Source: Limnomonas spitsbergensis
Taxonomy: Eukaryota; Chlorophyta; Chlorophyceae; Chlamydomonadales
Length of the DNA: 64,000 bases
Direction: 5' to 3'
Assembly: GCA_037349105.1 (NCBI GenBank)
Contig: JAYJMM010000093.1
Coordinates: 1,488,001-1,552,000 of the forward strand
Position 1 is the stretch's first letter. Each line of letters opens with the position of its first letter. A program made the translations under genes and the position numbers. Below the pieces are notes generated by a model, which worked only from the letters and a program-made list of their open reading frames with translations, did not search any database and was not told the DNA's origin. Below are positions 132 to 63,830 of this stretch, one piece after another.

Positions 132-3100
132 CTCCTGCCAAGCTTCGTCGGATTCAATCTTCATTCGCTTGACCGTGAAAGGCGGCGGCTCAGTTGCATC
201 ATTGTGGACTGGTAACCTGAGGAGGGGTGATGTGTGGATACTGTTGTATGATGTGTGAACCCTGAGGTGTAATCTTTGTGGATGCTGAGGTGTGACATGT
301 GTGATTGCCTAGGGATAATATGTGTGACATGCAAGGTGTGGTAGGTGTCGTGGGCATGTGACGGCCCGTGACGGCAGCTGCGTCACAGCCTTGGGAACTG
401 GCAGTGTGATGAGGTGTGATGTGTGATGAATGAGGAGTGATGTGGGACATGTGATGTGTGATGTGTCGACGTATGAATTACATGGTGTGATATGTGACAA
501 ATGATGAGTGATGTGAGACATGTGATGTGTGATGTGCCGACGTATGAATTACATGCTGTGATATGTGACAAATGATGAGTGATGTGAGACATGTGATGTG
601 TGATGTGCCGACGTATGAATTACATGGTTTGACATGTAACAAATGAGGAGTGATGTGAGACATGTGATGTGTGATAATACTGTCATTTGCAAGGTGTGAT
701 GTGTGACGAGCAAGGTGTGATGCATGCGCTCGAACTTAGTCACGTAGAAAGAGCTCTATGAGCAGGCTCAGCTCCACAACCAGCCAGCCAACCAACCAAA
801 TGACCCAGCCACTAACCAACCAACCAACCACCCAACTGACCCACCTCGAGTCATACAGATTGGGCTCTATGAACAGGCTCAGCTCCACGCCGGACAGCAC
901 ACAAGTCGTGCGGAATATTCTCAGCCCGCCCTCTTCAGTCACCTGGATCTCCGCATCGCCTGCAACAGGGAAACGTTGCAACAGGCAGGACAGGAGGAGG
1001 AAAATGTTGCAACAGGCAGAACAGGAGGGACAGGTGGTGGAAATGTTGCAACAGGCGGGACAGGAGGAGGGAAACCTTGCAACAGGCGGGACACGTGGAG
1101 GAAACAGTACAACAGGCAGGACAAGTGGAGGAAAACGTTGCAACAGGCAGGACAAGAGGAGGGAAACCTTGCAACAGGCCGAAAAGGAGGAGGGAAACGT
1201 TGCAACAGGCGGGACAAGTGGAGGGAAGCGTTGCAACAGGCGGGACAGAGGAGGAAACATACAACAGGCAGGACAGACGGGACAGGTGGAGGAAAACCTT
1301 GCAACAGGCGGGACAGGTGGAGGAAAATGTTGCAACCGGCGGGACAAGTGGAGGGAAATGTTGCAACAGGCGGGACAAGAGGAGGGAAACGTTGCAACAG
1401 GCGGGACAGGAGGAGGGAAACCTTGCAACAGGCGGGACAAGTGGAGGAAAACGTTGCAACAGGCGGGACAAGAGGAGGGAAACGTTGCAACAGGCGGAAC
1501 AGGAGGAGGGAAACGTTGCAACAGGCGGGACAAGTGGAGGGAAGCATTGCAACAGGCGGGACAGGCGGGACAGGTGGAGGAAAACCTTGCAACAGGCGGG
1601 ACAGGTGGAGGAAAATGTTGCAACCGGAGGGATGAGTGGCGGAAAGCGCTGAAACAGGCGGGACAGGAGGACTGATACCCTCTAACACTTATATCTAGAT
1701 TTGTTTGCAACTTCCCCACATAATGCCCCAGGGCCACGTTCCATACGTTTAGCCTTCACAAGAAGCTGCTCCAACCGCTGGCTGTAGTTGAGGAATCCTA
1801 TCTCCAACCACTGACTGTAGCTGAGGGCTTCTTGCTCCAACCGCTGGCTGTAGCTGAGGGCTTCTTGCTCCAACCGCTGGCTGTAGCTGAGGGCTTCTTG
1901 CTCCAACCGTTGGCTGTAGCTGAGGGCTTCTTGCTCTAACCGCTGGCTGTAGCTGACAAGTCCTAGCTCCAACCGTTGGCTGTAGCTGAGCCCCCCCCGC
2001 CTATCTGTCACCCCTCACCTATCTGGTACCACTTTCTGGCATCCTTCCCAAACTGCTGCCCGGCAGTTATAAGAAACTGCTCCAGGAGCTGGCTGGAGCT
2101 GAGGACGACGCGTTCCCCGGGAAAGTGTAACTTTTTGAACGCGGCGGTGATGCTGGCCATCTCCGTCTTGACGATCGGAAGCCGTACGAACTGGTGGAAA
2201 TGAAGCGGGAGGGGGGGGGGGGGGGGCAGGGAGCTTTTGAAGGGCAGGAAGGGGGGCAGGGGCTTTTGGGGGAGACTAGAGGAGGGGAGGAGGGGGGAGG
2301 GGGAAGGGGGGGAAGGGGGGGCAGGTATGAGGTAGGGGCAAGCTTTTGAACGCGGCGGTGAGGCTGGCCATCTCAGTCTTGACGATCGGCAGACGGACAA
2401 ACTGGTGGAGGGGAAGGGAGAGGGGGTTAGGGGGGCAAGTCGTCCTGTATAAGGCAAGTGGTAGCCATTGGCAACCAGTAGGGCGAGTCAATTGGCGATT
2501 TCAGCCAAGCCACTTGCCAAAAGATATCGGCAAGTACGGCAGCCCGAAGGCGAGTGCCCATGTTCACACTTTTCCCCACCGTTGGCTGATTGGCTCCCAG
2601 AAAAATATGTTGGGATTTTGAAATCAGATACAATCGGGGACATGGGGGGCAGGGAGCAGGGAGAAGATTTTGAACACGGCGGTGAAGCTTGCAATCCAGT
2701 TCTTGACGATTGGGGGGCGGACGCATTTATGGGGGAATGGGGGATAGGGTTTTAAGCTTACAACCTCTGCCGGTACTATTCCAATTTCGAGACGCTAGGG
2801 TGTGAAAGCTGAAAGCTAGCTAGGGCAACTTGTTAAACGCAGGCCCTTCCGGATCTTGATGGCAGGCCGACAGAAGAAGTGGCCGCAGTGTTTATTTTTT
2901 CGTCTGCGAATCCACCCTAAACCCTTAAGCCTAAACCCTTAACCCTAAACCCTTAACCCTAAACTTAACCGGCCTACAGACAGAAGAATTAGCCGCAATG
3001 TTTATTTTTTTCGTCTGCGAATTTACCCTATATAGGGGGGCAACTTAATCGGCCTACAGACAGAGGCCCAAGCAGTATGGGGCCACCAGCTGAAGGCCTG

Positions 3101-4834: not shown

Positions 4835-5154
4835 CTCGAGACAGATAGGAAATATGCTATAAGGTCGTGGTCTCGCTTTAGGGGGTCACAGCGCGTGCTG
4901 AGGCATAGACCGCGGAAATGAAGGAGTTAGTTCAATTTTTATTGTCGCTTTATTTGCATGCGCACATCTGTGTCGCAGAGGTGTAGAGCCAGCGTGATCA
5001 GTCGTAGACGAGTTGTGAGTGATACCGACAGGTTGGAGGAGTGTGGAAGACTCGAAGTACGGCATTTTGCAACACCGAGATCTCTGCCTAGTCACCCACC
5101 TGTTAATGCAGATGTCTTCCAAGGAGGACCCTATCAATTTATGTAATGAAGTTA

Positions 5155-5270
5155 CAAGTCTGGGCCTTGCTGATGACGCTCGGCCACGTCGGCAAACAGA
5201 AAGTCAGCTAGGAAAGGAAAGGGAGAAGGCACAAGAGGGAAGAAAGGATAGCATGTTCACCCACCAATAA
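5155..5270 (-). mobile_element. Retroelement 3'-end fragment
   Basis: Contains GCTCGGCCACGTCGGCAAAC followed by a purine-rich tail (GGAAAGGAAAGGGAGAAGGC). The same tract occurs at 41780-41860, and its reverse complement at 6900-7012 and 39600-39690. It is a truncated member of a dispersed family with no intact coding sequence. Confidence 0.6.
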
Positions 5271-5825
5271 ACAAGAACACAAAAAATTGATCCTATCAAT
5301 TTAGTGTCAGTCTCCGAAGCCTCAGCAACCAAGTGGCAGGGTCCCCATCTCGTAGGGCTTTTGAGACGGGCTCAAAAGGCAGCTGTCGCCCCCCGAAATT
5401 CTCACTGGCTCACCTGGTATGCTCTTCGATTTTTCTGGCTTATCGACTCAACTCTCTACTCTCGAAATTCCATGCAGCTCCATGTTGGCACATGCCTTCG
5501 GACCTCCCTGGCTCGTCCACTCCATGTCATTGACACCCATGTAACATGCATGGCAGCTCCATGCTGGATTTTGCCCACCGGTTGCCATGACATGGAACCG
5601 CCCCCACGGTTCCCCACTGTGAATTGGCCTCGCTCTCGACTTTCTTTCCCCCACTCTCTACTGTCCCCTACATTCCTTGGCCACCCATTCTGTGCTGCCA
5701 TCTCATCTTCCCATCCTCCCTCAGTACCCTCCCTCGTCCGTCGTCCTCGTCCTGGCCTTCAACAAGGAACCTACTCCACTGTTTTAGCCATTCCTATATA
5801 TGTCATTGCCCCTCATCTCCTCTCC

Positions 5826-6660: not shown

Positions 6661-6749
6661 ACAAGGGAGAAGGTGTTACGTTATTGACTTACCTATGATA
6701 GATGAGGCCTCACATTAATACTGGGCTTTCTGCCATTTACTTGCCATTG

Positions 6750-7495: not shown

Positions 7496-10400
7496 TCAAG
7501 AGGGCAGTGGTACCGCACACACGTGCCTCATGGTTGGTCTACCATGCGGGCAGTTCCACGGCTGCTTCAGCCCCGCCAGCCCCGCCAACACCCGCCCCAT
7601 GGCCGGCGCGTCCAACGATCGGCCGATCATGATGGACGAGCGGCACGCGCGGCTGGCCAGCATGGCGCGCACCCGCACCGGCCGCACGTCCTCCGGCCTC
7701 TCGCGGCCCTCCCGCAGCCGAGCGACGATCTCGGCGACATCCTCCGCGCCGAGCGTGGTGTTGCGCGAGAAAGGCACCGACGACAGCAGCAGCCGCGGCG
7801 ACTGCTCCTCCGCTGCCGCTGCTGCCGAGCCCCCAGGAGGAGCATCAGCATCAGCATCAGCATCGGTTTCAAACAAATCCCCTGCTCTTGAAGCTTCTCT
7901 TTCCCCGTACAACCTTTTCCCTATCAGCTCTGCTTCAGCGCTCATCGGGGTGCCGGCGGCCGGCCCTCCCTCCAGCTGTGCGTCGTTTCCCGCAGAGGCC
8001 TCATGGGGCGGGCCGGCGGGCAGACTACTCGGGGCGTCGACAAAGTCAAAGCCGCTTCGGCGGAAGACTTCCAGGTGGTCCCTGGGTTTGGGAGAGTGAA
8101 AGGGTTGATTGGCTTCAAAGGCAGTTCGGCTTTGAGGTGTTGCCCCGTTGAGGTGTTGCACAGTTGAGGAGTTGAGCAGTTGAGGAGTTGAGCAGTTAAA
8201 TTGTTGAGCAGTTCAGCAGTTGAGGAGTTGAGCAGTTGAGAGTTTGAGCAGATGAGGAGTTGAGCAGTTGAGGAGTTAAGCAATCGAGGAGTTGAGCAAT
8301 TGAGGAGGAGGAGGAGGACGACATGCATTATTGCTGACCTCGTACTGTTCTTCCAGGCATCCAATGAGGGTTGCGACTGAGTTGACTGCAGTGGCTGAAA
8401 GCGCTGCGTTGACCCAAGTTAAAATTATCGTAACTGATGCGCGACGGAATACCGGTATTAAAATTTATATGACAAAATATCGCCGTTTTTTAATTGATGT
8501 TTTGCTGCGTGGTGAAAAATGAAATTGTGGTGCGCGGAGTTTATTCGGTTATACGGTAAGTGGAGAACAGTAAAATACCGGTACCGTACCGGTAGATTAA
8601 AATAGCTTAACCGTCCCCCTAAAAAAACATTGTCAATTAATCCCCGACATGTCTTACTGTACTTCAAACCGGTAGTTTGCGCGGCCTATCGCGCACCCCA
8701 ACATAAACAATGTTTTGCGGAAAGGCAACCTGAAGCTACGACAGTGTCAAAGTCAAACTCCAGAGAGAGAACAGGCACCTGATGATGGACTCGTGTAAGG
8801 GTAAAGGCGCGGACGCGTCCTAGGCCCATGCCACACTGTTTCCTCAACCCTCACGCCCCTGCGGGGCGTCGTTTTCTTTCTTTCTTTCTTTCTGATCGAC
8901 TCGTCGTGGGGCATGAAGCCTGGGATGGGCCGCGGAACCAGCAGGGCTTAGGGTTTAGGGTTTCAAAGTAGGGTGTCAAAGTCAAACTCAAGAGAGAGAA
9001 CAGGTACCTGATGATCGACTCGTCGTGGGGCGTGAGGCCTGGGATAGGCCGCGGAACTAGCAGCGGCTGGCGATTCAACACGAATGTACGTTGGAGGCGC
9101 TCAAAGGTAATCTTCTCGTCCGCGGCATGCTGGTCCACGATGAACAGATCCTGACCCAGCCTGCAGGGGTTTAGGAGGGAGGGTTTCAGTTAAACCCTAG
9201 TAAAACCCTAAACCCTGGCCCAGCATGCTGGTCAACGATGAACAGGTCCCGACCCAGCCTGCACAGGGATTAAGGGGAGAAGGTTTCAGTTAAACCCTAG
9301 TAAAACCCTTAACCCTGGCCCAGCATGCTGGTCCACGATGAACAGATCCTGACCCAGCCTGCAGGGGTTTAGGAGGGAGGGTTTCAGTTAAACCCTAGTA
9401 AAACCCTTAACCCTGGCCCAGCATGCTGGTCCACGATGAACAGGTCCTGACCCAGCCTGCACAGGGGTTAAGGGGAGAAGGTTTCAGTTAAACCCTAGTA
9501 AAACCCTAAACCCTGGCCCAGCATGCTGGCCAACGATGAACAGGTCCTGACCCAGCCTGCACAGGGGTTAAGGGGGGAAGGTTTCAGTTAAACCCTAGTA
9601 AACCCGTAAATCTTGGTCCAGCATGCACACTTGCACAGGGTTTAGGGTGAAGAGGTCCAGGCCCAGCCTGCAGGGGTTAAGGGGGGAGGGTTTCAGTTAA
9701 AACCTAGTAAAACCTTAAATCTTGGCCCAGCATGCACAGGATTTAGGGTGAAGTGTTTCAGTTAAACCCTATACCCTGGCTTAGCCTGCAGGGTTCAGGG
9801 TCCAGGATTTTAGTTAAGTGCTACTTGACCCCCAAATCCTGGCCCAGCCTGCGGGGTTGAGGTTGAAAGGTTCTAGTTGGGCTGGGGCAATAATCCCGGC
9901 TGCTTTGACTGTCGGCCTGTCAAAGTCTGGTCCCTGTCCGCCTAGTGACGGCCGGAAAAAATAGGCCTGCCTCAAGCCGGCAAACCATTGGGCTTGGACC
10001 TGTTGGCTGGGCCTGTTCGCCGGTTAAAGTGTGGACCCCTCCCCGGCCAGCTGCCAGCCATGCTGCTTGGGCCTGGGCCTGTCGGCCGGTCAAAGTGTGG
10101 AATCCTACCCAGAATACAAGCTAGGGGCAAGATGGTGGGCGCAGGGGCCCAAGGGGGGGGGGGGAGGTGAATTGCTTGAATATCATGCTATAGATATCTG
10201 CGATTAGCATTGCCTGGCGTGGTCGCAACGTTTGGAAGAGGGTCCGAACTTAATGTACCTCGCGATTCACATTTCTGCAAATCGTGACCTTTGAGAACGC
10301 AGCGATTATTGCAATCGGTCTTATAATGCCATTTCAAGGCCATCTGAACCTTACAGTTCCGAGGAATCCAGCCCGTGAGGGGAGTTGGAGACCCCTTCAG

Positions 10401-42070: not shown

Positions 42071-42073
42071 TCC

Positions 42074-47000: not shown

Positions 47001-50000
47001 GTTTAGGGTTTTGTTGTTGCTACCTCATCCAAGATGGCATGGAACTCTGTGACGAGAGATCCTGTTCACAGCATCGAGGTCACGCTTGGTTTGATTGCCG
47101 TTAATTAAATAAAATTAGTTGTACAAGGATGAAATCTAACCCCTTTTGTTTGTTGCGGCTCCCTCATCCAGGACTGCAAGGAATTCGTCACGACAATCCT
47201 GCTCAAAACAACATTGTGGACAGGGTGTGAAACCAGCCCTGAGAAAAAGCCACAGCTCTGCAGTCAAGAGGCCTGACAGAGGGTCCCCAGTTTAGGGTTT
47301 AGGGTTTAATCCGGCTAAAGCCTAAACAAAACCCTTTACCCTAAAGCACATGGACAGACCAAATGCGCTCCCCCCTCTTATAGCTGCCCACACCATGTCC
47401 ACACTATGGTCACCCAATGCGCTCCATGTCCCTACCGTCCACACTTTGTCCACTCAATGTGCGCCATGTCACACCTGTTCACACTATTCCCACTCAATGC
47501 GCTCCATATCATACCTGTCCACACTATGTCCACCTTGTGTCCTCCGTGGTGCAACTGCTCACCAGTACTACATAGATGATGGCCTGTGTGTAGGGTTTAC
47601 ACCCTTTACCTTAAACCCACTCATTATTTATACGAAACCCCTTAACCCTAAACCCCACCCAATTCACACTAAGAACCCACCCAATACGCTCCGTATCGCT
47701 GCTGTCCACTACGTAGATGATGGCCTGTGTGTTAGGGTAGTAGCAGCGCCAGTACGGCCGGATGCTGGTCTGGCCGCCCAGGTCCCACACTTGAAACTGT
47801 TAAGCGTGAACAAGTGTGAAAGTGTGGACAGTTTGGGGAGTCAAAAAGTACTGATTCGAGTGTAGGGGTGGTCGCAGTGCCAGTACGGCCGGATGCTGGT
47901 CTTGCCGCCCAGGTCCCACACTTGAAACTGTGAAGTGTGAACAGTTTGGGGAGGGAGGAAGTGCAGGGCAGAGTGCAGCCGTGTACGGGTAGTAGCAGTG
48001 TACGGAAAATCGGATGGCCAAAACGGTAAAAAAATAGCCGACGCGGTGTTTTAACACGATACGGTATCGATAAACAGTGCGGTTCGGCATGGTACACGGC
48101 CGTCCTGGGTGACCCTGCTCCGTACATTGCTGCACACTCACAATATTCTCAACCCATGCACCCTTCCCTACTTACCCAAAACCCTAATACCAGTAATCAC
48201 TGCATTCGTTTATGCTACAAAATATTCATATTTTGACATGTTATTCTGCGTCATTCTCACACCTTGAACCCATGGACCCCTCCCGAAAAAACCCAAAATC
48301 TAATGACCACTGTATTATTTTATGCTACCATATTCATATGTTAATATGCCATTCGTATGTTATTCACGTCTTATTCATATGTTCACATGCCATTCATGTA
48401 TTAATATTGTCATTCATATGTTATTCAGTGTCGCGCTCAATCGCTCATACCTTGATGTTTTTGTAGCACACCGTTTCGACGTTGAATCCAATGGCTGCGG
48501 GCAGGGCAGTTAATATTTAGGAGGGTGCCTCAACAGAGATTCAGCCTAAGCATGGCATTGGCCCACTAAGCCCAGCAGGGCTTAATGCAGCACTCCCAGC
48601 TGCTTGCATGCCAAATTGCCAATGTGTGTGGGAATGTGAACATGTGTGTGCTTCAACTTAAGTCCAGCTACAATCCAGCTTACTATGTCCAACAGGGTTT
48701 GGTGCAGCACTCCCTGCCGCTTGCAAGCAACCATGTGTGGGAAATGTGCACATGTGCGTGCCTAAACTGAAAATCAGCTAAAATACGGCATAGGCTTAGC
48801 AGGGCTTAATGCAGATTGCTTCATGCTGATTGCATGCCACCGTGTGTGAGCATATGCTCATGTGTGTGCTTCAGCTTCAATTCAGCTGAGATCCGGCTTA
48901 AGGCAAGCAGGGCTTGGTGAAGCAACCTCGACCACTTGCTAGCCACTGCACGTGAGCATGTGTGGTCACATGTGTGGTTGCATGTGCTGAGCATCCGTGT
49001 GTGTGTGGTTGCATGTGCTGAGCATCCGTGCGTGTGTGGTTGCATGTGCTGAGCATGTGAGCGTGTCTCATTGCATGTGCTGAGCATCCGTGCGTGTGTG
49101 GTTGCATGTGCTGAGCATGTGAGCGTGTGTCATTGCATGTGCTGAGCATCCGTGCGTGTGTGGTGGCATGTGCTGAGCATGTGAGCGTGTGTGGTTGCAT
49201 GTGCTGAGCATCCGTGCATGTGTGGTGGCATGTGCTGAGCATCCGTGTGTGTGTGGTTGCATGTGCTGAGCATCCGTGTGTGTGTGGTTGCATGTCCAGA
49301 GCATCCGTGCGTGTGTGGTTGCATGTGCTGAGCATCCGTGTGTGTGTGGTGGCATGTGCTGAGCATCCATGAGTGTGTGGCTGCATGTGCTGAGCATGAG
49401 TGTGTGTGTGGTTGCATGTGCTGAGCATGTGAGCGTGTGTCAATGCATGTGCTAAACATCCGTGCGTGTGTGGTGGCATGTGCAGAGCATCCGTGCGTGT
49501 GTGGTTGCATGTGCTGAGCATCCGTGCGTGTGTGGCTGCATGTGCTGAGCATTTGTGCGTGTGTGGTTGCATGTGCTGAGCATCCATGCGTGTGTGGTTG
49601 CATGTGCTGAGCATCCGTGCGTGTGTGGTTGCATGTGCTGAGCATCCATGCGTGTGTGGTTGCATGTGCTGAGCATCCATGCGTGTGTGGTTGCATGTGC
49701 TGAGCATCCATGCGTGTGTGGTTGCATGTGCTGAGCATCCATGCGTGTGTGGTTGCATGTGCTGAGCATTTGTGCGTGTGTGGTTGCATGTGCAGAGCAT
49801 CCAGGCGTGTGTGGTTGCATGTGCAGAGCATCCGTGCGTGTGTGGTTGCATGTGCTGAGCATTTGTGCGTGTGTGGTTGCATGTGCTGAGCATCCATGCG
49901 TGTGTGGTTGCATGTGCAGAGCATCCATGCGTGTGTGGTTGCATGTGCTGAGCATCCGTGTGTGTGTGGTGGCATGTGCTGAGCATCCATGAGTGTGTGG

Positions 50001-53000
50001 CTGCATGTGCTGAGCATGAGTGTGTGTGTGGTTGCATGTGCTGAGCATGTGAGCGTGTGTCAATGCATGTGCTAAACATCCGTGCGTGTGTGGTTGCATG
50101 TGCAGAGCATCCGTGCGTGTGTGGTTGCATGTGCTGAGCATCCGTGCGTGTGTGGTTGCATGTGCTGAGCATCCGTGCGTGTGTGGTTGCATGTGCTGAG
50201 CATCCGTGCGTGTGTGGTTGCATGTGCTGAGCATCCGTGCGTGTGTGGTTGCATGTGCTGAGCATCCGTGCGTGTGTGGTTGCATGTGCTGAGCATCCAT
50301 GCGTGTGTGGTTGCATGTGCAGAGCATCCATGCGTGTGTGGTTGCATGTGCTGAGCATGTGAGCGTGTGTCATTGCATGTGCTGAGCATCCGTGCGTGTG
50401 TGGTTGCATGTGCTGAGCATGTGAGCGTGTGTCATTGCATGTGCTGAGCATCCGTGCGTGTGTGGTGGCATGTGCTGAGCATGTGAGCGTGTGTGGTTGC
50501 ATGTGCTGAGCATCCGTGCGTGTGTGGTGGCATGTGCTGAGCATCCGTGTGTGTGTGGTTGCATGTGCTGAGCATCCGTGTGTGTGTGGTTGCATGTCCA
50601 GAGCATCCGTGCGTGTGTGGTTGCATGTGCTGAGCATCCGTGTGTGTGTGGTGGCATGTGCTGAGCATCCATGAGTGTGTGGCTGCATGTGCTGAGCATG
50701 AGTGTGTGTGTGGTTGCATGTGCTGAGCATGTGAGCGTGTGTCAATGCATGTGCTAAACATCCGTGCGTGTGTGGTGGCATGTGCAGAGCATCCGTGCGT
50801 GTGTGGTTGCATGTGCTGAGCATCCGTGCGTGTGTGGCTGCATGTGCTGAGCATTTGTGCGTGTGTGGTTGCATGTGCTGAGCATCCATGCGTGTGTGGT
50901 TGCATGTGCTGAGCATCCATGCGTGTGTGGTTGCATGTGCTGAGCATCCATGCGTGTGTGGTTGCATGTGCAGAGCATCCATGCGTGTGTGGTTGCATGT
51001 GCTGAGCATGTGAGCGTGTGTCATTGCATGTGCTGAGCATCCGTGCGTGTGTGGTTGCATGTGCTGAGCATGTGAGCGTGTGTCATTGCATGTGCTGAGC
51101 ATCCGTGCGTGTGTGGTGGCATGTGCTGAGCATGTGAGCGTGTGTGGTTGCATGTGCTGAGCATCCGTGCGTGTGTGGTGGCATGTGCTGAGCATCCGTG
51201 TGTGTGTGGTTGCATGTGCTGAGCATCCGTGTGTGTGTGGTTGCATGTCCAGAGCATCCGTGCGTGTGTGGTTGCATGTGCTGAGCATCCGTGTGTGTGT
51301 GGTGGCATGTGCTGAGCATCCATGAGTGTGTGGCTGCATGTGCTGAGCATGAGTGTGTGTGTGGTTGCATGTGCTGAGCATGTGAGCGTGTGTCAATGCA
51401 TGTGCTAAACATCCGTGCGTGTGTGGTGGCATGTGCAGAGCATCCGTGCGTGTGTGGTTGCATGTGCTGAGCATCCGTGCGTGTGTGGTTGCATGTGCTG
51501 AGCATCCGTGCGTGTGTGGTTGCATGTGCTGAGCATCCGTGCGTGTGTGGTTGCATGTGCTGAGCATCCGTGCGTGTGTGGTTGCATGTGCTGAGCATCC
51601 ATGCGTGTGTGGTTGCATGTGCTGAGCATCCATGCGTGTGTGGTTGCATGTGCAGAGCATCCATGCGTGTGTGGTTGCATGTGCTGAGCATCCATGCGTG
51701 TGTGGTTGCATGTGCTGAGCATTTGTGCGTGTGTGGTTGCATGTGCAGAGCATCCAGGCGTGTGTGGTTGCATGTGCAGAGCATCCGTGCGTGTGTGGTT
51801 GCATGTGCTGAGCATTTGTGCGTGTGTGGTTGCATGTGCTGAGCATCCATGCGTGTGTGGTTGCATGTGCAGAGCATCCATGCGTGTGTGGTTGCATGTG
51901 CTGAGCATCCGTGTGTGTGTGGTGGCATGTGCTGAGCATCCATGAGTGTGTGGCTGCATGTGCTGAGCATGAGTGTGTGTGTGGTTGCATGTGCTGAGCA
52001 TGTGAGCGTGTGTCAATGCATGTGCTAAACATCCGTGCGTGTGTGGTGGCATGTGCAGAGCATCCGTGCGTGTGTGGTTGCATGTGCTGAGCATCCGTGC
52101 GTGTGTGGTTGCATGTGCTGAGCATCCGTGCGTGTGTGGTTGCATGTGCTGAGCATTTGTGCGTGTGTGGTTGCATGTGCTGAGCATCCATGCGTGTGTG
52201 GTTGCATGTGCTGAGCATCCATGCGTGTGTGGTTGCATGTGCTGAGCATCCATGCGTGTGTGGTTGCATGTGCAGAGCATCCATGCGTGTGTGGTTGCAT
52301 GTGCTGAGCATGTGAGCGTGTGTCATTGCATGTGCTGAGCATCCGTGCGTGTGTGGTTGCATGTGCTGAGCATGTGAGCGTGTGTCATTGCATGTGCTGA
52401 GCATCCGTGCGTGTGTGGTGGCATGTGCTGAGCATGTGAGCGTGTGTGGTTGCATGTGCTGAGCATCCGTGCATGTGTGGTGGCATGTGCTGAGCATCCG
52501 TGTGTGTGTGGTTGCATGTGCTGAGCATCCGTGTGTGTGTGGTTGCATGTCCAGAGCATCCGTGCGTGTGTGGTTGCATGTGCTGAGCATCCGTGTGTGT
52601 GTGGTGGCATGTGCTGAGCATCCATGAGTGTGTGGCTGCATGTGCTGAGCATGAGTGTGTGTGTGGTTGCATGTGCTGAGCATGTGAGCGTGTGTCAATG
52701 CATGTGCTAAACATCCGTGCGTGTGTGGTGGCATGTGCAGAGCATCCGTGCGTGTGTGGTTGCATGTGCTGAGCATCCGTGCGTGTGTGGCTGCATGTGC
52801 TGAGCATTTGTGCGTGTGTGGTTGCATGTGCTGAGCATCCATGCGTGTGTGGTTGCATGTGCTGAGCATCCATGCGTGTGTGGTTGCATGTGCTGAGCAT
52901 CCATGCGTGTGTGGTTGCATGTGCAGAGCATCCATGCGTGTGTGGTTGCATGTGCTGAGCATGTGAGCGTGTGTCATTGCATGTGCTGAGCATCCGTGCG

Positions 53001-56000
53001 TGTGTGGTTGCATGTGCTGAGCATGTGAGCGTGTGTCATTGCATGTGCTGAGCATCCGTGCGTGTGTGGTGGCATGTGCTGAGCATGTGAGCGTGTGTGG
53101 TTGCATGTGCTGAGCATCCGTGCATGTGTGGTGGCATGTGCTGAGCATCCGTGTGTGTGTGGTTGCATGTGCTGAGCATCCGTGTGTGTGTGGTTGCATG
53201 TGCAGAGCATCCGTGCGTGTGTGGTTGCATGTGCTGAGCATCCGTGTGTGTGTGGTGGCATGTGCTGAGCATCCATGAGTGTGTGGCTGCATGTGCTGAG
53301 CATGAGTGTGTGTGTGGTTGCATGTGCTGAGCATGTGAGCGTGTGTCAATGCATGTGCTAAACATCCGTGCGTGTGTGGTGGCATGTGCAGAGCATCCGT
53401 GCGTGTGTGGTTGCATGTCCAGAGCATCCGTGCGTGTGTGGTTGCATGTGCTGAGCATCCGTGTGTGTGTGGTGGCATGTGCTGAGCATCCATGAGTGTG
53501 TGGCTGCATGTGCTGAGCATGAGTGTGTGTGTGGTTGCATGTGCTGAGCATGTGAGCGTGTGTCAATGCATGTGCTAAACATCCGTGCGTGTGTGGTGGC
53601 ATGTGCTGAGCATCCATGCGTGTGTGGTTGCATGTGCTGAGCATCCGTGCGTGTGTGGTTGCATGTGCTGAGCATCCATGCGTGTGTGGTTGCATGTGCT
53701 GAGCATCCATGCGTGTGTGGTTGCATGTGCAGAGCATCCATGCGTGTGTGGTTGCATGTGCTGAGCATCCATGCGTGTGTGGTTGCATGTGCTGAGCATT
53801 TGTGCGTGTGTGGTTGCATGTGCAGAGCATCCAGGCGTGTGTGGTTGCATGTGCAGAGCATCCGTGCGTGTGTGGTTGCATGTGCTGAGCATTTGTGCGT
53901 GTGTGGTTGCATGTGCTGAGCATCCATGCGTGTGTGGTTGCATGTGCAGAGCATCCATGCGTGTGTGGTTGCATGTGCTGAGCATCCGTGTGTGTGTGGT
54001 GGCATGTGCTGAGCATCCATGAGTGTGTGGCTGCATGTGCTGAGCATGAGTGTGTGTGTGGTTGCATGTGCTGAGCATGTGAGCGTGTGTCAATGCATGT
54101 GCTAAACATCCGTGCGTGTGTGGTGGCATGTGCAGAGCATCCGTGCGTGTGTGGTTGCATGTGCTGAGCATCCGTGCGTGTGTGGTTGCATGTGCTGAGC
54201 ATCCGTGCGTGTGTGGCTGCATGTGCTGAGCATTTGTGCGTGTGTGGTTGCATGTGCTGAGCATCCATGCGTGTGTGGTTGCATGTGCTGAGCATCCATG
54301 CGTGTGTGGTTGCATGTGCTGAGCATCCATGCGTGTGTGGTTGCATGTGCAGAGCATCCATGCGTGTGTGGTTGCATGTGCTGAGCATGTGAGCGTGTGT
54401 CATTGCATGTGCTGAGCATCCGTGCGTGTGTGGTTGCATGTGCTGAGCATGTGAGCGTGTGTCATTGCATGTGCTGAGCATCCGTGCGTGTGTGGTGGCA
54501 TGTGCTGAGCATGTGAGCGTGTGTGGTTGCATGTGCTGAGCATCCGTGCGTGTGTGGTGGCATGTGCTGAGCATCCGTGTGTGTGTGGTTGCATGTGCTG
54601 AGCATCCGTGTGTGTGTGGTTGCATGTGCTGAGCATCCGTGCGTGTGTGGTTGCATGTGCTGAGCATCCGTGTGTGTGTGGTGGCATGTGCTGAGCATCC
54701 ATGAGTGTGTGGCTGCATGTGCTGAGCATGAGTGTGTGTGTGGTTGCATGTGCTGAGCATGTGAGCGTGTGTCAATGCATGTGCTAAACATCCGTGCGTG
54801 TGTGGTGGCATGTGCAGAGCATCCGTGCGTGTGTGGTTGCATGTCCAGAGCATCCGTGCGTGTGTGGTTGCATGTGCTGAGCATCCGTGTGTGTGTGGTG
54901 GCATGTGCTGAGCATCCATGAGTGTGTGGCTGCATGTGCTGAGCATGAGTGTGTGTGTGGTTGCATGTGCTGAGCATGTGAGCGTGTGTCAATGCATGTG
55001 CTAAACATCCGTGCGTGTGTGGTGGCATGTGCAGAGCATCCGTGCGTGTGTGGTTGCATGTGCTGAGCATCCATGCGTGTGTGGTTGCATGTGCAGAGCA
55101 TCCATGCGTGTGTGGTTGCATGTGCTGAGCATCCGTGCGTGTGTGGTTGCATGTGCTGAGCATCCGTGCGTGTGTGGTTGCATGTGCAGAGCATCCATGC
55201 GTGTGTGGTTGCATGTGCAGAGCATCCGTGCGTGTGTGGTTGCATGTGCTGAGCATTTGTGCGTGTGTGATTGCATGTGCTGAGCATCCATGCGTGTGTG
55301 GTTGCATGTGCAGAGCATCCATGCGTGTGTGGTTGCATGTGCTGAGCATCCGTGTGTGTGTGGTGGCATGTGCAGAGCATCCGTGCGTGTGTGGTTGCAT
55401 GTCCAGAGCATCCGTGCGTGTGTGGTTGCATGTGCTGAGCATGTGAGCGTGTGTTTATGCATGTGCTGAGCATCCATGCGTGTGTGGTTGCATGTGCTGA
55501 GCATGTGAGCGTGTGTCATTGCATGTGCTGAGCATCCGTGCGTGTGTGGTGGCATGTGCTGAGCATGTGAGCGTGTGTGGTTGCATGTGCTGAGCATCCG
55601 TGCGTGTGTGGTGGCATGTGCTGAGCATCCGTGTGTGTGTGGTTGCATGTGCTGAGCATCCGTGTGTGTGTGGTTGCATGTCCAGAGCATCCGTGCGTGT
55701 GTGGTTGCATGTGCTGAGCATCCGTGTGTGTGTGGTGGCATGTGCTGAGCATCCATGAGTGTGTGGCTGCATGTGCTGAGCATGAGTGTGTGTGTGGTTG
55801 CATGTGCTGAGCATGTGAGCGTGTGTCAATGCATGTGCTAAACATCCGTGCGTGTGTGGTGGCATGTGCAGAGCATCCGTGCGTGTGTGGTTGCATGTCC
55901 AGAGCATCCGTGCGTGTGTGGTTGCATGTGCTGAGCATCCGTGTGTGTGTGGTGGCATGTGCTGAGCATCCATGAGTGTGTGGCTGCATGTGCTGAGCAT

Positions 56001-59000
56001 GAGTGTGTGTGTGGTTGCATGTGCTGAGCATGTGAGCGTGTGTCAATGCATGTGCTAAACATCCGTGCGTGTGTGGTGGCATGTGCAGAGCATCCGTGCG
56101 TGTGTGGTTGCATGTGCTGAGCATCCATGCGTGTGTGGTTGCATGTGCAGAGCATCCATGAGTGTGTGTGTGGTTGCATGTGCTGAGCATCCATGCGTGT
56201 GTGGTTGCATGTGCTGAGCATCCGTGCGTGTGTGGTTGCATGTGCAGAGCATCCATGCGTGTGTGGTTGCATGTGCAGAGCATCCGTGCGTGTGTGGTTG
56301 CATGTGCTGAGCATTTGTGCGTGTGTGATTGCATGTGCTGAGCATCCATGCGTGTGTGGTTGCATGTGCTGAGCATTTGTGCGTGTGTGGTTGCATGTGC
56401 TGAGCATCCGTGTGTGTGTGGTGGCATGTGCAGAGCATCCGTGCGTGTGTGGTTGCATGTCCAGAGCATCCGTGCGTGTGTGGTTGCATGTGCTGAGCAT
56501 GTGAGCGTGTGTCAATGCATGTGCTAAACATCCGTGCGTGTGTGGTGGCATGTGCAGAGCATCTGTGCGTGTGTGGTTGCATGTGCTGAGCATCCGTGCG
56601 TGTGTGGCTGCATGTGCTGAGCATTTGTGCGTGTGTGGTTGCATGTGCTGAGCATCCATGCGTGTGTGGTTGCATGTGCTGAGCATCCATGCGTGTGTGG
56701 TTGCATGTGCTGAGCATCCATGCGTGTGTGGTTGCATGTGCAGAGCATCCATGCGTGTGTGGTTGCATGTGCTGAGCATGTGAGCGTGTGTCATTGCATG
56801 TGCTGAGCATCCGTGCGTGTGTGGTTGCATGTGCTGCGCATGTGAGCGTGTGTCATTGCATGTGCTGAGCATCCGTGCGTGTGTGGTGGCATGTGCTGAG
56901 CATGTGAGCGTGTGTGGTTGCATGTGCTGAGCATCCGTGCGTGTGTGGTGGCATGTGCTGAGCATCCGTGTGTGTGTGGTTGCATGTGCTGAGCATCCGT
57001 GTGTGTGTGGTTGCATGTCCAGAGCATCCGTGCGTGTGTGGTTGCATGTGCTGAGCATCCGTGTGTGTGTGGTGGCATGTGCTGAGCATCCATGAGTGTG
57101 TGGGTGCATGTGCTGAGCATGAGTGTGTGTGTGGTTGCATTTGCTGAGCATGTGAGCGTGTGTCAATGCATGTGCTAAACATCCGTGCGTGTGTGGTGGC
57201 ATGTGCAGAGCATCCGTGCGTGTGTGGTTGCATGTCCAGAGCATCCGTGCGTGTGTGGTTGCATGTGCTGAGCATCCGTGTGTGTGTGGTGGCATGTGCT
57301 GAGCATCCATGAGTGTGTGGCTGCATGTGCTGAGCATGAGTGTGTGTGTGGTTGCATGTGCTGAGCATGTGAGCGTGTGTCAATGCATGTGCTAAACATC
57401 CGTGCGTGTGTGGTGGCATGTGCAGAGCATCCGTGCGTGTGTGGTTGCATGTGCTGAGCATCCGTGCGTGTGTGGTTGCATGTGCTGAGCATTTGTGCGT
57501 GTGTGGTTGCATGTGCTGAGCATCCATGCGTGTGTGGTTGCATGTGCTGAGCATCCGTGCGTGTGTGGTTGCATGTGCTTAGCATCCATGCGTGTGTGGT
57601 TGCATGTGCTGAGCATCCATGCGTGTGTGGTTGCATGTCCAGAGCATCCATGCGTGTGTGGTTGCATGTGCTGAGCATCCATGCGTGTGTGGTTGCATGT
57701 GCAGAGCATCCATGCGTGTGTGGTTGCATGTGCAGAGCATCCATGCCTGTGTGGTTGCATGTGCTGAGCATCCGTGCGTGTGTGGTTGCATGTGCTGAGA
57801 ATTTGTGCGTGTGTGGTTGCATGTGCTGAGCATTTGTGCGTGTGTGGTTGCATGTGCAGAGCATCCATGCGTGTGTGGTTGCATGTGCTGAGCATCCATG
57901 CGTGTGTGGTTGCATGTGCTGAGCATCCATGCGTGTGTGGTTGCATGTGCAGAGCATCCATGCGTGTGTGGTTGCATGTGCAGAGCATCCATGCGTGTGT
58001 GGTTGCATGTGCTGAGCATCCGTGCGTGTGTGGTTGCATGTGCTGAGCATCCATGCGTGTGTGGTTGCATGTGCTGAGCATCCATGCGTGTGTGGTTGCA
58101 TGTGCAGAGCATACATGCGTGTGTGGTTGTATGTGCTGAGCATCCGTGCGTGTGTGGTTGCATGTGCTGAGCATCTGTGCGTGTGTGTTTGCATGTGCTG
58201 AGCATCCGTGCGTGTGTGGTTGCATGTGCTGAGCATTTGTGCGTGTGTGGTTGCATGTGCTGAGCATCTGTGCGTGTGTGGTTGCATGTGCTGAGCATCC
58301 ATGCGTGTGTGGTTGCATGTGCTGAGCATTTGTGCGTGTGTGGTTGCATGTGCAGAGCATCCATGCGTGTGTGGTTGCATGTGCAGAGCATCCGTGCGTG
58401 TGTGGTTGCATGTGCTGAGCATTTGTGCGTGTGTGGTTGCATGTGCTGAGCATTTGTGCGTGTGTGGTTGCATGTGCAGAGCATCCATGCGTGTGTGGTT
58501 GCATGTGCTGAGCATCCATGCGTGTGTGGTTGCATGTGCTGAGCATCCATGCGTGTGTGGTTGCATGTGCAGAGCATCCATGCGTGTGTGGTTGCATGTG
58601 CAGAGCATCCATGCGTGTGTGGTTGCATGTGCTGAGAATCCGTGCGTGTGGTTGCATGTGCTGAGCATCCATGCGTGTGTGGTTGCATGTGCTGAGCATC
58701 CATGCGTGTGTGGTTGTATGTGCTGAGCATCCGTGCGTGTGTGGTTGCATGTGCTGAGCATCTGTGCGTGTGTGTTTGCATGTGCTGAGCATCCGTGCGT
58801 GTGTGGTTGCATGTGCTGAGCATTTGTGCGTGTGTGGTTGCATGTGCTGAGCATCTGTGCGTGTGTGGTTGCATGTGCTGAGCATCCATGCGTGTGTGGT
58901 TGCATGTGCTGAGCATTTGTGCGTGTGTGGTTGCATGTGCAGAGCATCCATGCGTGTGTGGTTGCATGTGCAGAGCATCCGTGCGTGTGTGGTTGCATGT

Positions 59001-62000
59001 GCTGAGCATTTGTGCGTGTGTGGTTGCATGTGCTGAGCATTTGTGCGTGTGTGGTTGCATGTGCAGAGCATCCATGCGTGTGTGGTTGCATGTGCTGAGC
59101 ATCCATGCGTGTGTGGTTGCATGTGCTGAGCATCCATGCGTGTGTGGTTGCATGTGCAGAGCATCCATGCGTGTGTGGTTGCATGTGCAGAGCATCCATG
59201 CGTGTGTGGTTGCATGTGCTGAGAATCCGTGCGTGTGGTTGCATGTGCTGAGCATCCATGCGTGTGTGGTTGCATGTGCTGAGCATCCATGCGTGTGTGG
59301 TTGCATGTGCAGAGCATCCATGCGTGTGTGGTTGCATGTGCAGAGCATACATGCGTGTGTGGTTGCATGTGCAGAGCATCCGTGCGTGTGTGGTTGCATG
59401 TGCTGAGCATTTGTGCGTGTGTGGTTGCATGTGCTGAGCATCCATGCGTGTGTGGTTGCATGTGCTGAGCATCCGTGCGTGTGTGGTTGCATGTGCTGAG
59501 CATTTGTGCGTGTGTGGTTGCATGTGCTGAGCATCCGTGCGTGTGTGTTTGAATGTGCTGAGCATCCGTGCGTGTGTGGTTGCATGTGCTGAGCATTTGT
59601 GCGTGTGTGGTTGCATGTGCTGAGCATTTGTGCGTGTGTGGTTGCATGTGCTGAGCATCCGTGCGTGTGTGGTTGCATGTGCTGAGCATCCGTGTGTGTG
59701 TGGTGGCATGTGCTGAGCATCCATGAGTGTGTGGCTGCATGTGCTGAGCATGAGTGTGTGTGTGGTTGCATGTGCTGAGCATGTGAGCGTGTGTCAATGC
59801 ATGTGCTAAACATCCGTGCGTGTGTGGTGGCATGTGCAGAGCATCCGTGCGTGTGTGGTTGCATGTGCTGAGCATCCATGCGTGTGTGGTTGCATGTGCA
59901 GAGCATCCATGCGTGTGTGGTTGCATGTGCTGAGCATCCATGCGTGTGTGGTTGCATGTGCTGAGCATCCGTGCGTGTGTGGTTGCATGTGCTGAGCATC
60001 CGTGCGTGTGTGGTTGCATGTGCTGAGCATCCGTGCGTGTGTGGTTGCATGTGCTGAGCATTTGTGCGTGTGTGGTTGCATGTGCTGAGCATCCATGCGT
60101 GTGTGGTTGCATGTGCAGAGCATCCATGCGTGTGTGGTTGCATGTGCTGAGCATCCGTGTGTGTGTGGTGGCATGTGCTGAGCATCCATGAGTGTGTGGC
60201 TGCATGTGCTGAGCATGAGTGTGTGTGTGGTTGCATGTGCTGAGCATGTGAGCGTGTGTCAATGCATGTGCTAAACATCCGTGCGTGTGTGGTGGCATGT
60301 GCAGAGCATCCGTGCGTGTGTGGTTGCATGTGCTGAGCATCCGTGCGTGTGTGGCTGCATGTGCTGAGCATTTGTGCGTGTGTGGTTGCATGTGCTGAGC
60401 ATCCATGCGTGTGTGGTTGCATGTGCTGAGCATCCATGCGTGTGTGGTTGCATGTGCTGAGCATCCATGCGTGTGTGGTTGCATGTGCTGAGCATCCATG
60501 CGTGTGTGGTTGCATGTGCTGAGCATGTGAGCGTGTGTGGTTGCATGTGCTGAGCATCCGTGCGTGTGTGGTTGCATGTGCTGAGCATGTGAGCGTGTGT
60601 CATTGCATGTGCTGAGCATCCGTGCGTGTGTGGTGGCATGTGCTGAGCATGTGAGCGTGTGTGGTTGCATGTGCTGAGCATCCGTGCATGTGTGGTGGCA
60701 TGTGCTGAGCATCCGTGTGTGTGTGGTTGCATGTGCTGAGCATCCGTGTGTGTGTGGTGGCATGTGCTGAGCATCCATGAGTGTGTGGCTGCATGTGCTG
60801 AGCATGAGTGTGTGTGTGGTTGCATGTGCTGAGCATGTGAGCGTGTGTCAATGCATGTGCTAAACATCCGTGCGTGTGTGGTGGCATGTGCAGAGCATCC
60901 GTGCGTGTGTGGTTGCATGTCCAGAGCATCCGTGCGTGTGTGGTTGCATGTGCTGAGCATCCGTGTGTGTGTGGTGGCATGTGCTGAGCATCCATGAGTG
61001 TGTGGCTGCATGTGCTGAGCATGAGTGTGTGTGTGGTTGCATGTGCTGAGCATGTGAGCGTGTGTCAATGCATGTGCTAAACATCCGTGCGTGTGTGGTG
61101 GCATGTGCAGACCATCCGTGCGTGTGTGGTTGCATGTGCTGAGCATCCGTGCGTGTGTGGCTGCATGTGCTGAGCATTTGTGCGTGTGTGGTTGCATGTG
61201 CTGAGCATCCATGCGTGTGTGGTTGCATGTGCTGAGCATCCGTGCGTGTGTGGTTGCATGTGCTGAGCATCCATGCGTGTGTGGTTGCATGTGCTGAGCA
61301 TCCATGCGTGTGTGGTTGCATGTGCAGAGCATCCATGCGTGTGTGGTTGCATGTGCTGAGCATCCATGCGTGTGTGGTTGCATGTGCTGAGCATTTGTGC
61401 GTGTGTGGTTGCATGTGCTGAGCATGTGAGCGTGTGTCATTGCATGTGCAGAGCATCCGTGCGTGTGTGGTTGCATGTGCTGAGAATTTGTGCGTGTGTG
61501 GTTGCATGTGCTGAGCATTTGTGCGTGTGTGGTTGCATGTGCAGAGCATCCATGCGTGTGTGGTTGCATGTGCTGAGCATCCATGCGTGTGTGGTTGCAT
61601 GTGCTGAGCATCCATGCGTGTGTGGTTGCATGTGCAGAGCATCCATGCGTGTGTGGTTGCATGTGCAGAGCATCCATGCGTGTGTGGTTGCATGTGCTGA
61701 GAATCCGTGCGTGTGTGGTTGCATGTGCTGAGCATCCATGCGTGTGTGGTTGCATGTGCTGAGCATCCATGCGTGTGTGGTTGCATGTGCAGAGCATACA
61801 TGCGTGTGTGGTTGTAAGTGCTGAGCATCCGTGCGTGTGTGGTTGCATGTGCTGAGCATCTGTGCGTGTGTGTTTGCATGTGCTGAGCATCCGTGCGTGT
61901 GTGGTTGCATGTGCTGAGAATTTGTGCGTGTGTGGTTGCATGTGCTGAGCATCCGTGCGTGTGTGGTTGCATGTGCTGAGCATCCATGCGTGTGTGGTTG

Positions 62001-63830
62001 CATGTGCTGAGCATTTGTGCGTGTGTGGTTGCATGTGCAGAGCATCCATGCGTGTGTGGTTGCATGTGCAGGGCATCCGTGCGTGTGTGGTTGCATGTGC
62101 TGAGCATTTGTGCGTGTGTGGTTGCATGTGCTGAGCATTTGTGCGTGTGTGGTTGCATGTGCAGAGCATCCATGCGTGTGTGGTTGCATGTGCTGAGCAT
62201 CCATGCGTGTGTGGTTGCTATGCTGAGCATCCATGCGTGTGTGGTTGCATGTGCAGAGCATCCATGCGTGTGTGGTTGCATGTGCAGAGCATCCATGCGT
62301 GTGTGGTTGCATGTGCTGAGAATCCGTGCGTGTGTGGTTGCATGTGCAGAGCATCCATGCGTGTGTGGTTGCATGTGCAGAGCATACATGCGTGTGTGGT
62401 TGCATGTGCAGAGCATCCGTGCGTGTGTGGTTGCATGTGCTGAGCATTTGTGCGTGTGTGGTTGCATGTGCTGAGCATCCATGCGTGTGTGGTTGCATGT
62501 GCTGAGCATCCGTGCGTGTGTGGTTGCATGTGCTGAGCATTTGTGCGTGTGTGGTTGCATGTGCTGAGCATTTGTGCGTGTGTGGTTGCATGTGCTGAGC
62601 ATCTGTGCGTGTGTGGCTGCATGCGCTGAGCATTTGTGCGTGTGTGGGTGCATGTGCTGAGCATCCATGCGTGTGTGGTTGCATGTGCTGAGCATCCGTG
62701 AATTGGATACTAGTACTCACTGGGAATAGTGGACACCACCTCCCCGACCTGTAGCCGATACAGGATGGTCGTTTTCCCTGCATTGTCCTGCGGGGTTCGG
62801 TGCATGCACAAGATCGGGGTTTGGCGCTTGGAAGATATCGGGGTTTGGTTGTTCAAAGTACTTTTCCCTGCATTCTCCTGCAATGTGTGGTTGTGGGGAA
62901 CTTCCACGCTTCTCATGAAACATTATCTTGCAGCAGGTGGGTGTGGGGCACTTTTGCACACTACGCAAGCCTGTGGTAGGTGGGCATGGGGGAGGGAGTA
63001 TGTCGGTGCTTTGTATGCAATGAGATGGGCAGCTGTATCAGGTGGCAGCGAAGATCTCATCCGTCCAGGGCTGCCTGTTCTAGCACCACAGAGCAATATT
63101 CTGCATGGAATATATACATGGAATATATGACCTCGTGACGGCCTGATGGCCAAGCAGAGCTGCCATTTGAATTTGAACACTGCAGTGCAAATTTGAAACA
63201 TGCGCTTGCGATGGGTTCTGCTGTTTGCAGCCCTGTCACGGAAACAGCTGCGGCTTGGCTTCATGCGCCCCAGAGCTGGCAGCTGCAGGAAATAGCATGG
63301 AGTGTGCGGCATGCATGCATGCCACAATCTCCATGCTCCATCCTGCCTCATGCACTCCGCAGGCCAGATTTTTCCTGCTGCATCAGACCCCAATCAGACC
63401 TGTTATCGATACAGGCACATAGCACTAAGCCCCCCGACCATAACAGGTCCTACACAGAATATGACTCGTGCGGTGCATGCGGTGTGGATGGGGACAGTGT
63501 GGGGGCAGAAACGAGACGTCGCACTGAGTAGCTTTCGAGATGATCGAAACACGCACCAGGCCTAGGACGAGGATACGCGCCTCTCTGTCGCCGAAGTAGC
63601 TGAATAGCCTGTGGACAGGTACAAGAGGGGGGAAGCTGCTCGAACGTATCCAGGGGGAAGGGAACGGGAAGATCCACCCCATGGGTCATTTGCTTCGCTG
63701 GTTCCTCTTGTCACCCGGCAGGACCCTGCACGCTGCGTCATGAAGGTACGCAGAGGATCTGGCGAGATGGTGCAAACCAGCACAGACACGGTGACACCTA
63801 GCTACCTCACCTAGACATCCATATTCCCAT
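44049..63830 (-). CDS. ARL1: ARL1, ARF-family small GTPase (plant type)
   Basis: Eight exons (5' to 3'): 63811-63830, 63557-63608, 62721-62787, 48451-48494, 47681-47796, 46903-46984, 45412-45531 and 44049-44093. All introns are GT-AG, phases agree, and they encode exactly 181 residues plus TAA, the usual ARL1 length. The protein starts MGIWMSRLFSYFG; Gly2 is the expected N-myristoylation site. Nucleotide-binding motifs are complete: GLDNAGKT (23-30), Thr47 in [15 protein letters not shown] (65-70), NKQD (125-128, split by intron 6) and TSA (157-159). The C-terminus ends [14 protein letters not shown]. Closest family by motif is plant ARL1, a trans-Golgi GTPase that recruits GRIP golgins. Coding sequence is 546 bases in 19.8 kb; intron 3 alone is 14,226 bp. 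Confidence 0.95.
44094..45411. repeat. ARL1 intron 7 with a 30-bp minisatellite
   Basis: Bases 44455-44720 hold about eight copies of GTTTGTGTGACCCATGTACT plus GTGTGACTCA. Bases 44750-45100 look unique and non-coding. Bases 45300-45325 are two GTAGCTGAACT units of the dispersed simple repeat. Confidence 0.85.
45532..46130 (-). repeat. Five decoy copies of the ARL1 exon 7 acceptor and 5' part
   Basis: Copies near 45630, 45755, 45880, 46000 and 46090 (period about 120-127 bp, the last shorter) carry GTGCCTCAGTCAATGCATTG and GGCAAGTCCTGCA. On the gene strand that is TTGCAG|GACTTGCCCAATGC, the acceptor plus DLPNALTEA of exon 7. All are upstream of the true exon (45412-45531), and none reaches its donor. 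Confidence 0.93.
46480..46902 (-). repeat. Copies of the ARL1 exon 6 donor edge and a hairpin-type repeat
   Basis: Bases 46487-46518 (CTGCTCCTCACCTGCTCGTT) repeat the exon 6 donor edge (CTTCTCGTCACCTGCTTGTT, 46892-46911). Units at about 46600-46720 and 46745-46860 repeat AGAATAAGCACTCAGGACCC, CCATGGTAACGGTGCGGATG and the GCTGCGCTGTTCCCTTAACC dispersed element. Confidence 0.8.
46985..47215 (-). repeat. Two decoy copies of the ARL1 exon 6 acceptor and 5' part
   Basis: Bases 47025-47062 (ATCCAAGATGGCATGGAACT then CTGTGACGAGAGATCCTGTT) and 47163-47205 (a decayed version) repeat the start of exon 6. Both are upstream of the true exon. The first has a one-base insertion that would break the frame. 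Confidence 0.85.
47216..47680 (-). repeat. ARL1 intron 5 remainder with one copy of the exon 5 3' part
   Basis: Bases 47561-47600 repeat the tail of exon 5 (gene strand CACACAGGCCATCATCTA then CGTAGTAC-type sequence with a following GTGAGC). They lie downstream of the true exon. Bases 47385-47540 are three copies of a ~65-bp TCCACACTATGTCCAC-type unit. TTTAGGG-like tracts flank it. Confidence 0.75.
47797..48450 (-). repeat. ARL1 intron 4 with a copy of the exon 5 acceptor and 5' part and a decayed TIR element
   Basis: Bases 47868-47931 repeat the first half of exon 5, reading [18 protein letters not shown] on the minus strand with the acceptor CTTCACAG kept. Relative to the exon one visible change is Q to K in the GGQ motif. 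Bases 48000-48114 end GGCCGTCCTGGGTGACCCTG, resembling the CAGGGTTACCC element family. Confidence 0.85.
48495..48950. repeat. 3' end of ARL1 intron 3: 115-120-bp repeat
   Basis: Three to four diverged copies of GGCTTAATGCAGCACTCCCA, GCTGCTTGCATGCCA and AATGTGTGTGGGAATGTG. This unit grades into the large 31-bp array and may be an older version of the same sequence. Confidence 0.75.
48951..62699. repeat. 13.7-kb 31-bp minisatellite with higher-order structure, filling ARL1 intron 3
   Basis: About 440 units of GTGGTTGCATGTGCTGAGCA plus TCCGTGCGTGT. Monomer variants (CCGTGCG, CCATGCG, TTTGTGCG; CTGAG, CAGAG, CCAGAG) recur in fixed order. A marker block containing ATCCATGAGTGTGTGGCTGC recurs 19 times. 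Its spacings are almost all multiples of 31: 217, 465, 527, 589, 620, 651, 682 and 837 bp. The run 620+682+651 = 1,953 bp repeats exactly twice (49397 to 51350 to 53303). No minus-strand frame of the 31-mer contains a stop, which creates spurious open frames up to 1,540 codons in Met/His/Cys/Thr repeats. Confidence 0.97.
62788..63556. other. ARL1 intron 2 with one copy of the exon 3 acceptor edge
   Basis: Bases 62868-62892 (TTTTCCCTGCATTCTCCTGC) repeat the start of exon 3 (TTTTCCCTGCATTGTCCTGC, 62773-62791). On the gene strand that is GCAG|GAGAATGCAGGGAAAA, encoding ENAGK. The rest is mostly unique sequence with two related ATCGGGGTTTGG segments at about 62812-62850. Confidence 0.75.

Follow-up and report, generated by a model that had tools for sequence, protein, structure and literature searches.

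Half-exon tandem repeats of the mirage type in introns of the green alga Limnomonas spitsbergensis

Introns of Limnomonas spitsbergensis carry tandem repeats in which the repeated unit includes the edge of the neighbouring exon together with its splice site. They were noticed in a stretch of 64,000 nt (the window; contig JAYJMM010000093.1, nt 1,488,001–1,552,000), and a first-pass annotation of this DNA proposed that exon-intron junctions seed the duplications. The locus raises the question of whether splice junctions are hotspots of duplication, or whether ordinary intronic duplications, some of them crossing an exon edge, would leave the same structures behind.

Genes of the window and their half-exon copies

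Gene models were obtained by tblastn and spliced alignment, using human PMS2 and ARL1 sequences as probes. Both of the genes recovered are on the minus strand, a PMS gene between about 30.7 and 7.5 kb and an ARL1 gene between 63.6 and 44.0 kb, and most of their modelled junctions are GT-AG. Between 22.2 and 12.5 kb resolution of some PMS exons is only partial, and weak pieces in the middle were left out. Pfam matches to MutL_C, DNA_mis_repair and Arf agree with the two models, and two Arf-related GTPase families also match the ARL1 exons; the N-terminal PMS exons are without a Pfam match, and their model comes from tblastn and spliced alignment. No further gene was found by Pfam scans of read-through frames in the window (scanned outside 19.1–19.9 kb on the minus strand, 18.9–27.0 and 43.5–48.9 kb on the plus strand, and 48.9–62.6 kb on both). 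Matches to FixS, CIAPIN1, Nuc_recep-AF1 and Collagen_mid were weak or lay in low-complexity or repeat sequence and were rejected, leaving two genes where four had been described originally. Rfam searches at gathering thresholds gave no match in the window. Tandem Repeats Finder (TRF) returned 99 rows, one of which, the 31-bp array of Table 1, was masked in the junction analyses. Telomere-like CCCTAAA/TTTAGGG pieces recur in intronic and intergenic repeat units (2914–2964, 9125–9735, 26021–26880, 28576–28602 and 42290–42322), and the ORF translations near the left end (2011–2487) contain recurring, similar peptide pieces, which may be copied exon edges of a further gene.

Table 1. Exons, half-exon copies and tandem arrays of the window (PMS, PMS gene; ARL1, ARL1 gene).
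Feature	Position (nt)	Strand	Basis and remarks
PMS exon 4 3'-part copy, downstream	25694..25744	-	exon itself 25913-25821
145-bp x 1.9 array	24483..24755	-	TRF; upstream of PMS exon 5, acceptor + 5' part
PMS exon 5 (VGTRLEF...LPVRHK)	24241..24363	-	spliced alignment; 5' part copied upstream, 3' part downstream
117-bp x 5 array	23729..24315	-	TRF; PMS exon 5 3' part + donor, from exon into downstream intron
PMS exon 6 acceptor/5' edge copies, two, upstream	23508..23608	-	exon itself 23418-23341
128-bp x 11.6 array	20327..21799	-	TRF; upstream of PMS exon 19994..20110, acceptor + 5' part
PMS exon 7 (numbered E9 in one analysis), copies at both edges	19994..20110	-	spliced alignment + copy scans
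115-bp x 2 array	19521..19751	-	TRF; PMS exon 19994..20110 3' part + donor
PMS exon (CDVNVTPDKRKV), exact acceptor unsettled	18033..18149	-	tblastn, spliced alignment
178/134-bp array	17496..18128	-	TRF; PMS exon 18033..18149 3' part + donor
100-bp x 6.1 array	9125..9735	-	TRF; acceptor + 5' edge of PMS exon 9008..9160
PMS exon (GQDLFIVDQHAADEK), copies at both edges	9008..9160	-	spliced alignment + copy scans
31-bp x 443 array, 89% matches	48971..62700	.	TRF; 13.7 kb, fills one ARL1 intron
ARL1 exon 4 (FQVWDLGG)	47681..47796	-	upstream acceptor copy 47943-47860; downstream copy of internal piece 47596-47567
ARL1 exon 5	46903..46984	-	upstream acceptor copy 47068-47023
122-bp x 4.3 array	45503..46024	-	TRF + sequence; acceptor + first ~30 bp of ARL1 exon 6
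ARL1 exon 6	45412..45531	-	spliced alignment

Each exon edge, represented by 12 bp of intron and up to 40 bp of exon, was aligned to the introns on both sides. Of 30 edges in PMS and ARL1, 12 have a copy of their splice site in the adjoining intron on the predicted side, acceptor copies upstream and donor copies downstream, while copies on the wrong side and copies in shuffled introns (one shuffle each) were seen at 0 of 30; the three counts were the same at each of three thresholds. The copies belong to 7 of 14 acceptors and 5 of 16 donors, and to 9 of the 18 modelled exons. The figure of 18 out of 29 exons given in the first-pass annotation was not reproduced under this strict threshold, and an extra short donor copy of ARL1 near 46535 is visible by eye and missing from the scans. 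Arrays of up to about a dozen copies were confirmed, the largest of the window being the 128-bp array (20327–21799). Copies at both edges had been described for exons of both genes; this holds for three PMS exons (24363–24241, 20110–19994 and 9160–9008) and for no ARL1 exon in the edge test, the downstream copy of ARL1 exon 4 being an internal piece.

The same test was applied to 13 genes elsewhere in the assembly, namely CCT1–8 (with two CCT7 loci), three ARF-type genes and one SAR1-type gene. The regions were picked by protein family prior to any look at repeats, and 13 of 20 were used; three were dropped before counting because their models were 28–36% identical to the reference (L047, L048 and L051) and four because they had no BLAST hit (L049, L050, L053 and L054). 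In this sample a copy lies on the predicted side of 17 of 192 edges at a threshold of 40 (19 at 36, 15 at 44), against 0 of 192 on the wrong side. Copies are found at 16 of 109 exons, at 12 of 96 acceptors and 5 of 96 donors (p = 0.13), and clusters of copies touching an exon are present in seven of the genes and absent from six. The share of edges with copies, 40% in the window and 9% in the sample, indicates that the window is not typical. Of 368 copies listed in all, 98 reach across a junction by at least 6 bp on each side; these lie at 31 junctions.

Half-exon copies with one splice site are thus real structures of these introns, and the rule about the side on which they lie was borne out in both data sets. 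The rule is forced by the geometry of tandem duplication and needs no special process: whichever copy is joined to the rest of the exon counts as the exon, so that an extra acceptor copy must sit upstream, and donors mirror this. It shows that the copies originate by tandem duplication, and nothing further. The statement that no copy retains both splice sites also held, with 0 whole-exon copies for 95 internal exons (12 of them in the window), but only about two would be expected. Lengths alone predict about 0.07 whole-exon events per single-junction event, and the expectation from 25 partial copies (25 x 0.069) is close to the observed zero, so their absence says little.

Two groups of repeated genes were seen elsewhere in the assembly. 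Many chlorophyll a/b-binding genes have nearly equal scores, some of them locally clustered (G000:C109, C110 and others), and pieces of an MCM-like gene are repeated several times within about 40 kb (G000:C75:557601-598846). Among 120 listed matches of a light-harvesting protein from the assembly, the best was from Chlamydomonas eustigma (90% identical).

Duplications relative to splice junctions

If junctions seeded duplications, repeats might be expected to be densest there. Repeat coverage was calculated with exons masked, because constrained exon sequence may keep copies recognisable for longer. It was 5.9% at 0–15 bp from a junction, 8.1% at 15–30 bp, 9.1% at 30–50 bp, 10.1% at 50–75 bp and 11.5% at 75–100 bp, then 16.2% at 100–150 bp, 15.7% at 150–250 bp and 22.2% at 250–500 bp, values in which distance is confounded with intron length and in which masking shortens edge matches and lowers near-junction coverage by some amount. 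Beyond 500 bp it reached 75%, a value in which one CCT2 array weighs heavily, and the trend was the same when the CCT2 gene was omitted. Unmasked coverage followed the same trend (9.8% at 0–15 bp, 22.8% at 250–500 bp), and 7.7% of the sequence outside gene models was covered.

A paired comparison covering 53 introns no shorter than 300 bp found junctions to be spanned by duplications in 12.3% of cases and interior points in 15.9% (Wilcoxon p = 0.10). Within the window, 9 of 31 junctions were spanned, compared to a mean of 47% of interior points in 15 introns, the junction list having the donor of ARL1 exon 2 a few bases off and lacking the acceptor of the PMS exon at 20110; in two intergenic stretches 23% and 39% of points were spanned. 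The overlap of the copies with the exon is spread over 7–79 bp, which argues against duplications being nucleated exactly at the splice site. No per-position test on the 13 genes or the window shows enrichment of duplications at junctions. The comparison of junctions with other positions had been put forward by the first-pass annotation itself, and it left junctions no higher than interior points, with coverage of 6–9% close to junctions against 16–22% at 100–500 bp. Its central inference, that junctions seed the duplications, is not supported.

Counted as events, the clusters give one result that runs the other way. Of the 36 clusters in genes, 24 touch an exon and 12 are confined to introns; a further 10 lie outside genes. 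With introns of their present lengths, uniform duplication predicts an exon-touching share of 36% analytically and 39–42% by simulation, the latter letting duplications fall uniformly and applying a viability filter and a detection bias. The observed 24 of 36 lies above this (P about 0.0001 at a share of 0.355), and still does if introns were three quarters as long (P = 0.004). With ancestral introns half as long, the expected share becomes 56% (P = 0.12), and it rises to 68% if introns are given an upper limit of 229 bp, the mean reported for C. reinhardtii (PMC11247165). The clusters are not fully independent, as the two CCT7 loci perhaps share some; without four possible CCT7 repeats the count is 20 of 32 (P = 0.002 at 36%, 0.27 at half length). 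Those gene clusters whose best identity is at least 88% comprise eight that touch exons and six that are intron-only, which is not clearly above 42%.

Half-length ancestral introns would account for the excess, and shorter ancestors are plausible since introns with duplications are now much longer than those without (medians of 730 and 227 bp). Intron length and repeat content are correlated across 96 introns (Spearman 0.63), which may partly reflect the greater room in longer introns, and none of 30 introns shorter than 200 bp has a detected duplication. The mean intron length of L. spitsbergensis has been reported as 788 bp, and repeats were noted in the same work (PMC11228838). The 24 of 36 leaves room for a modest bias towards junctions. 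A stronger version, in which a process tied to splicing or to the junctions (for example, transcription- or splicing-linked breaks) starts the duplications, makes junctions true hotspots with an event share raised up to about 1.6- to 1.9-fold, and provides a main route of intron growth in this lineage, could draw on that excess over the uniform null; set against the flat per-position tests, the scattered exon overlaps, the loss of significance with introns about half as long and the near balance among the most similar clusters, we regard it as unlikely.

Origin and fate of the copies

The best explanation, to which we would give a probability of about four in five, is that these are mirage-type minisatellites arising from ordinary intronic tandem duplication that sometimes crosses an exon edge. 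Short duplications, mostly of about 65–180 bp, would arise anywhere along introns. Those lying over one exon edge would keep the reading frame and the real splice sites and could survive; the copy still attached to the remaining exon would stay functional, and the others would become half-exons with a single splice site, acceptor halves ending up upstream and donor halves downstream. Duplications within exons, or over two edges, would alter the protein and be lost. Some pairs may then expand into arrays by unequal exchange or slippage, and introns would lengthen as the arrays grow. What we infer here is the mutational mechanism, the purging step, the lengthening of introns that follows and the skipping of the copies by splicing.

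A local origin is also what distinguishes this reading from insertion, with later copying, of introners or mobile elements bearing splice sites. Splice-site-bearing repeats do sit in introns, and introners have been reported in 5% of species (PMC9860276). The copies, however, hold the sequence of the neighbouring exon itself, and three units searched against the whole assembly (260,226,709 bases in 124 contigs; simple repeats and very common words skipped) matched only their own arrays: the 122-bp unit of ARL1 exon 6 (45503..46024) at 4 places, the 128-bp unit (20327..21799) at 15 and the 178/134-bp unit (17496..18128) at 4. Insertion of such elements therefore seems highly improbable.

An error in assembling noisy long reads is harder still to credit. 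Tandem arrays are difficult to assemble, and the assembly of one amphioxus mirage was aberrant in a draft genome (PMC3087553), but best identities in the 24 exon-touching clusters range from 73 to 98%, and a divergence of 2–27% between copies speaks against assembly error. Moreover, many clusters consist of just two copies, they were found in 7 of the 13 sampled genes, and the published L. spitsbergensis reads, if they underlie this assembly, have an L50 of 33 kb (PMC11228838).

Most junction-spanning copies keep their splice dinucleotide, AG in 42 of 49 acceptor copies (43 of 49 by eye, where all 13 copies of PMS exon 7, whose start was set one base off in the count, have AG) and GT in 46 of 49 donor copies, of which 23 come from CCT2 exon 8, copies within an array being non-independent. 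Such retention might suggest functional decoy or alternative splice sites under selection. Their retention is only slightly above that of other bases: 0.93 for the AG bases compared to 0.87 on the intron side and 0.91 on the exon side, and 0.97 for the GT bases compared to 0.92 and 0.79. At the acceptor of CCT4 exon 13, AG is gone from each of the three copies listed. In 9 of 24 clusters the nearest copy is displaced by a multiple of three, the chance level. At 16 junctions, splicing to the nearest copy would in 15 cases throw the message out of frame or run into a stop codon, and in the remaining one give an in-frame, stop-free extension. Selected decoys are accordingly very unlikely, if slightly less so than inserted elements, and the dinucleotides appear to decay like neighbouring bases, in what looks like near-neutral change.

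As most nearest copies would damage the message if used, they are presumably ignored by splicing. The proposal that half-exons are tolerated for this reason fits the retention and frame counts; that they are passed over by the splicing machinery is the presumptive part of it. The most extensive case is in CCT2 (L046, about 5066–7407), where the last ~20 bp of exon 8 and its donor form the beginning of an array with an 83-bp unit. The start of this intron offers 23 spanning, near-identical donors, and in 20 of them the 20 bases surrounding the site are identical; the array, whose best identity is 95.9%, shows that homogeneous arrays exist.

The two CCT7 loci (L043 and L044) have equal exon numbers, proteins that are 97% identical and a K4 of 0.70. 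Exons 4, 7 and 9 have half-exon copies in both loci, and those at exons 4 and 9 end at nearly the same exon position. As a means of dating the copies and of detecting concerted evolution, comparison of these paralogues gave a mixed result, common origin and recurrence being indistinguishable.

Mirages, introners and intron gain by duplication

The closest known structures are the 'mirage' minisatellites of amphioxus, described in Adh3, the globins BflGb6 and BflGb9, TnC and PGBD5 (PMC3087553, PMC3902484), similar repeats in PGBD5 being covered by the second of these sources (PMC3902484). Their units range from 10–72 bp in Adh3 to 150–160 bp in the globins, with 81–100% identity in BflGb6 (PMC3087553, PMC3902484). 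Amphioxus and alga alike have a unit that spans the exon-intron boundary, repeats on the acceptor or the donor side, and many, although not all, copies that retain AG or GT; in the alga both edge types are affected and the copies lie in the adjoining intron. The difference is one of host and of counting: a green alga rather than a chordate, with copies counted over 15 genes, with controls, from DNA alone.

What is new here is the presence of mirage-type repeats in several genes of a chlorophyte, the structure itself being known already from amphioxus. A literature search of one collection found no report of mirages in green algae, and half-exon repeats go unmentioned in the available portion of the L. 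spitsbergensis genome paper (PMC11228838), which reports IsoSeq data for this species. Mirages, which those sources describe from a handful of amphioxus genes, are then not a chordate oddity. Half-exon copies constitute natural tests of splice-site choice, the CCT2 donor run being an example, and they point to a simple way for introns to grow longer.

Two other systems share part of this pattern. Introners are likewise repeated DNA bearing splice sites in introns, and are described as copying themselves into many genes (PMC9860276); the three algal units searched are local only, and similar units dispersed over many introns were not found for them. In the model of Rogers, introns are gained through duplication of AG/GT (PMC3087553), and a short intragenic tandem duplication that copies a splice signal is common to that model and to the alga. 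The duplication creates a new intron in the Rogers model, whereas the copies in L. spitsbergensis lie inside introns that already exist.
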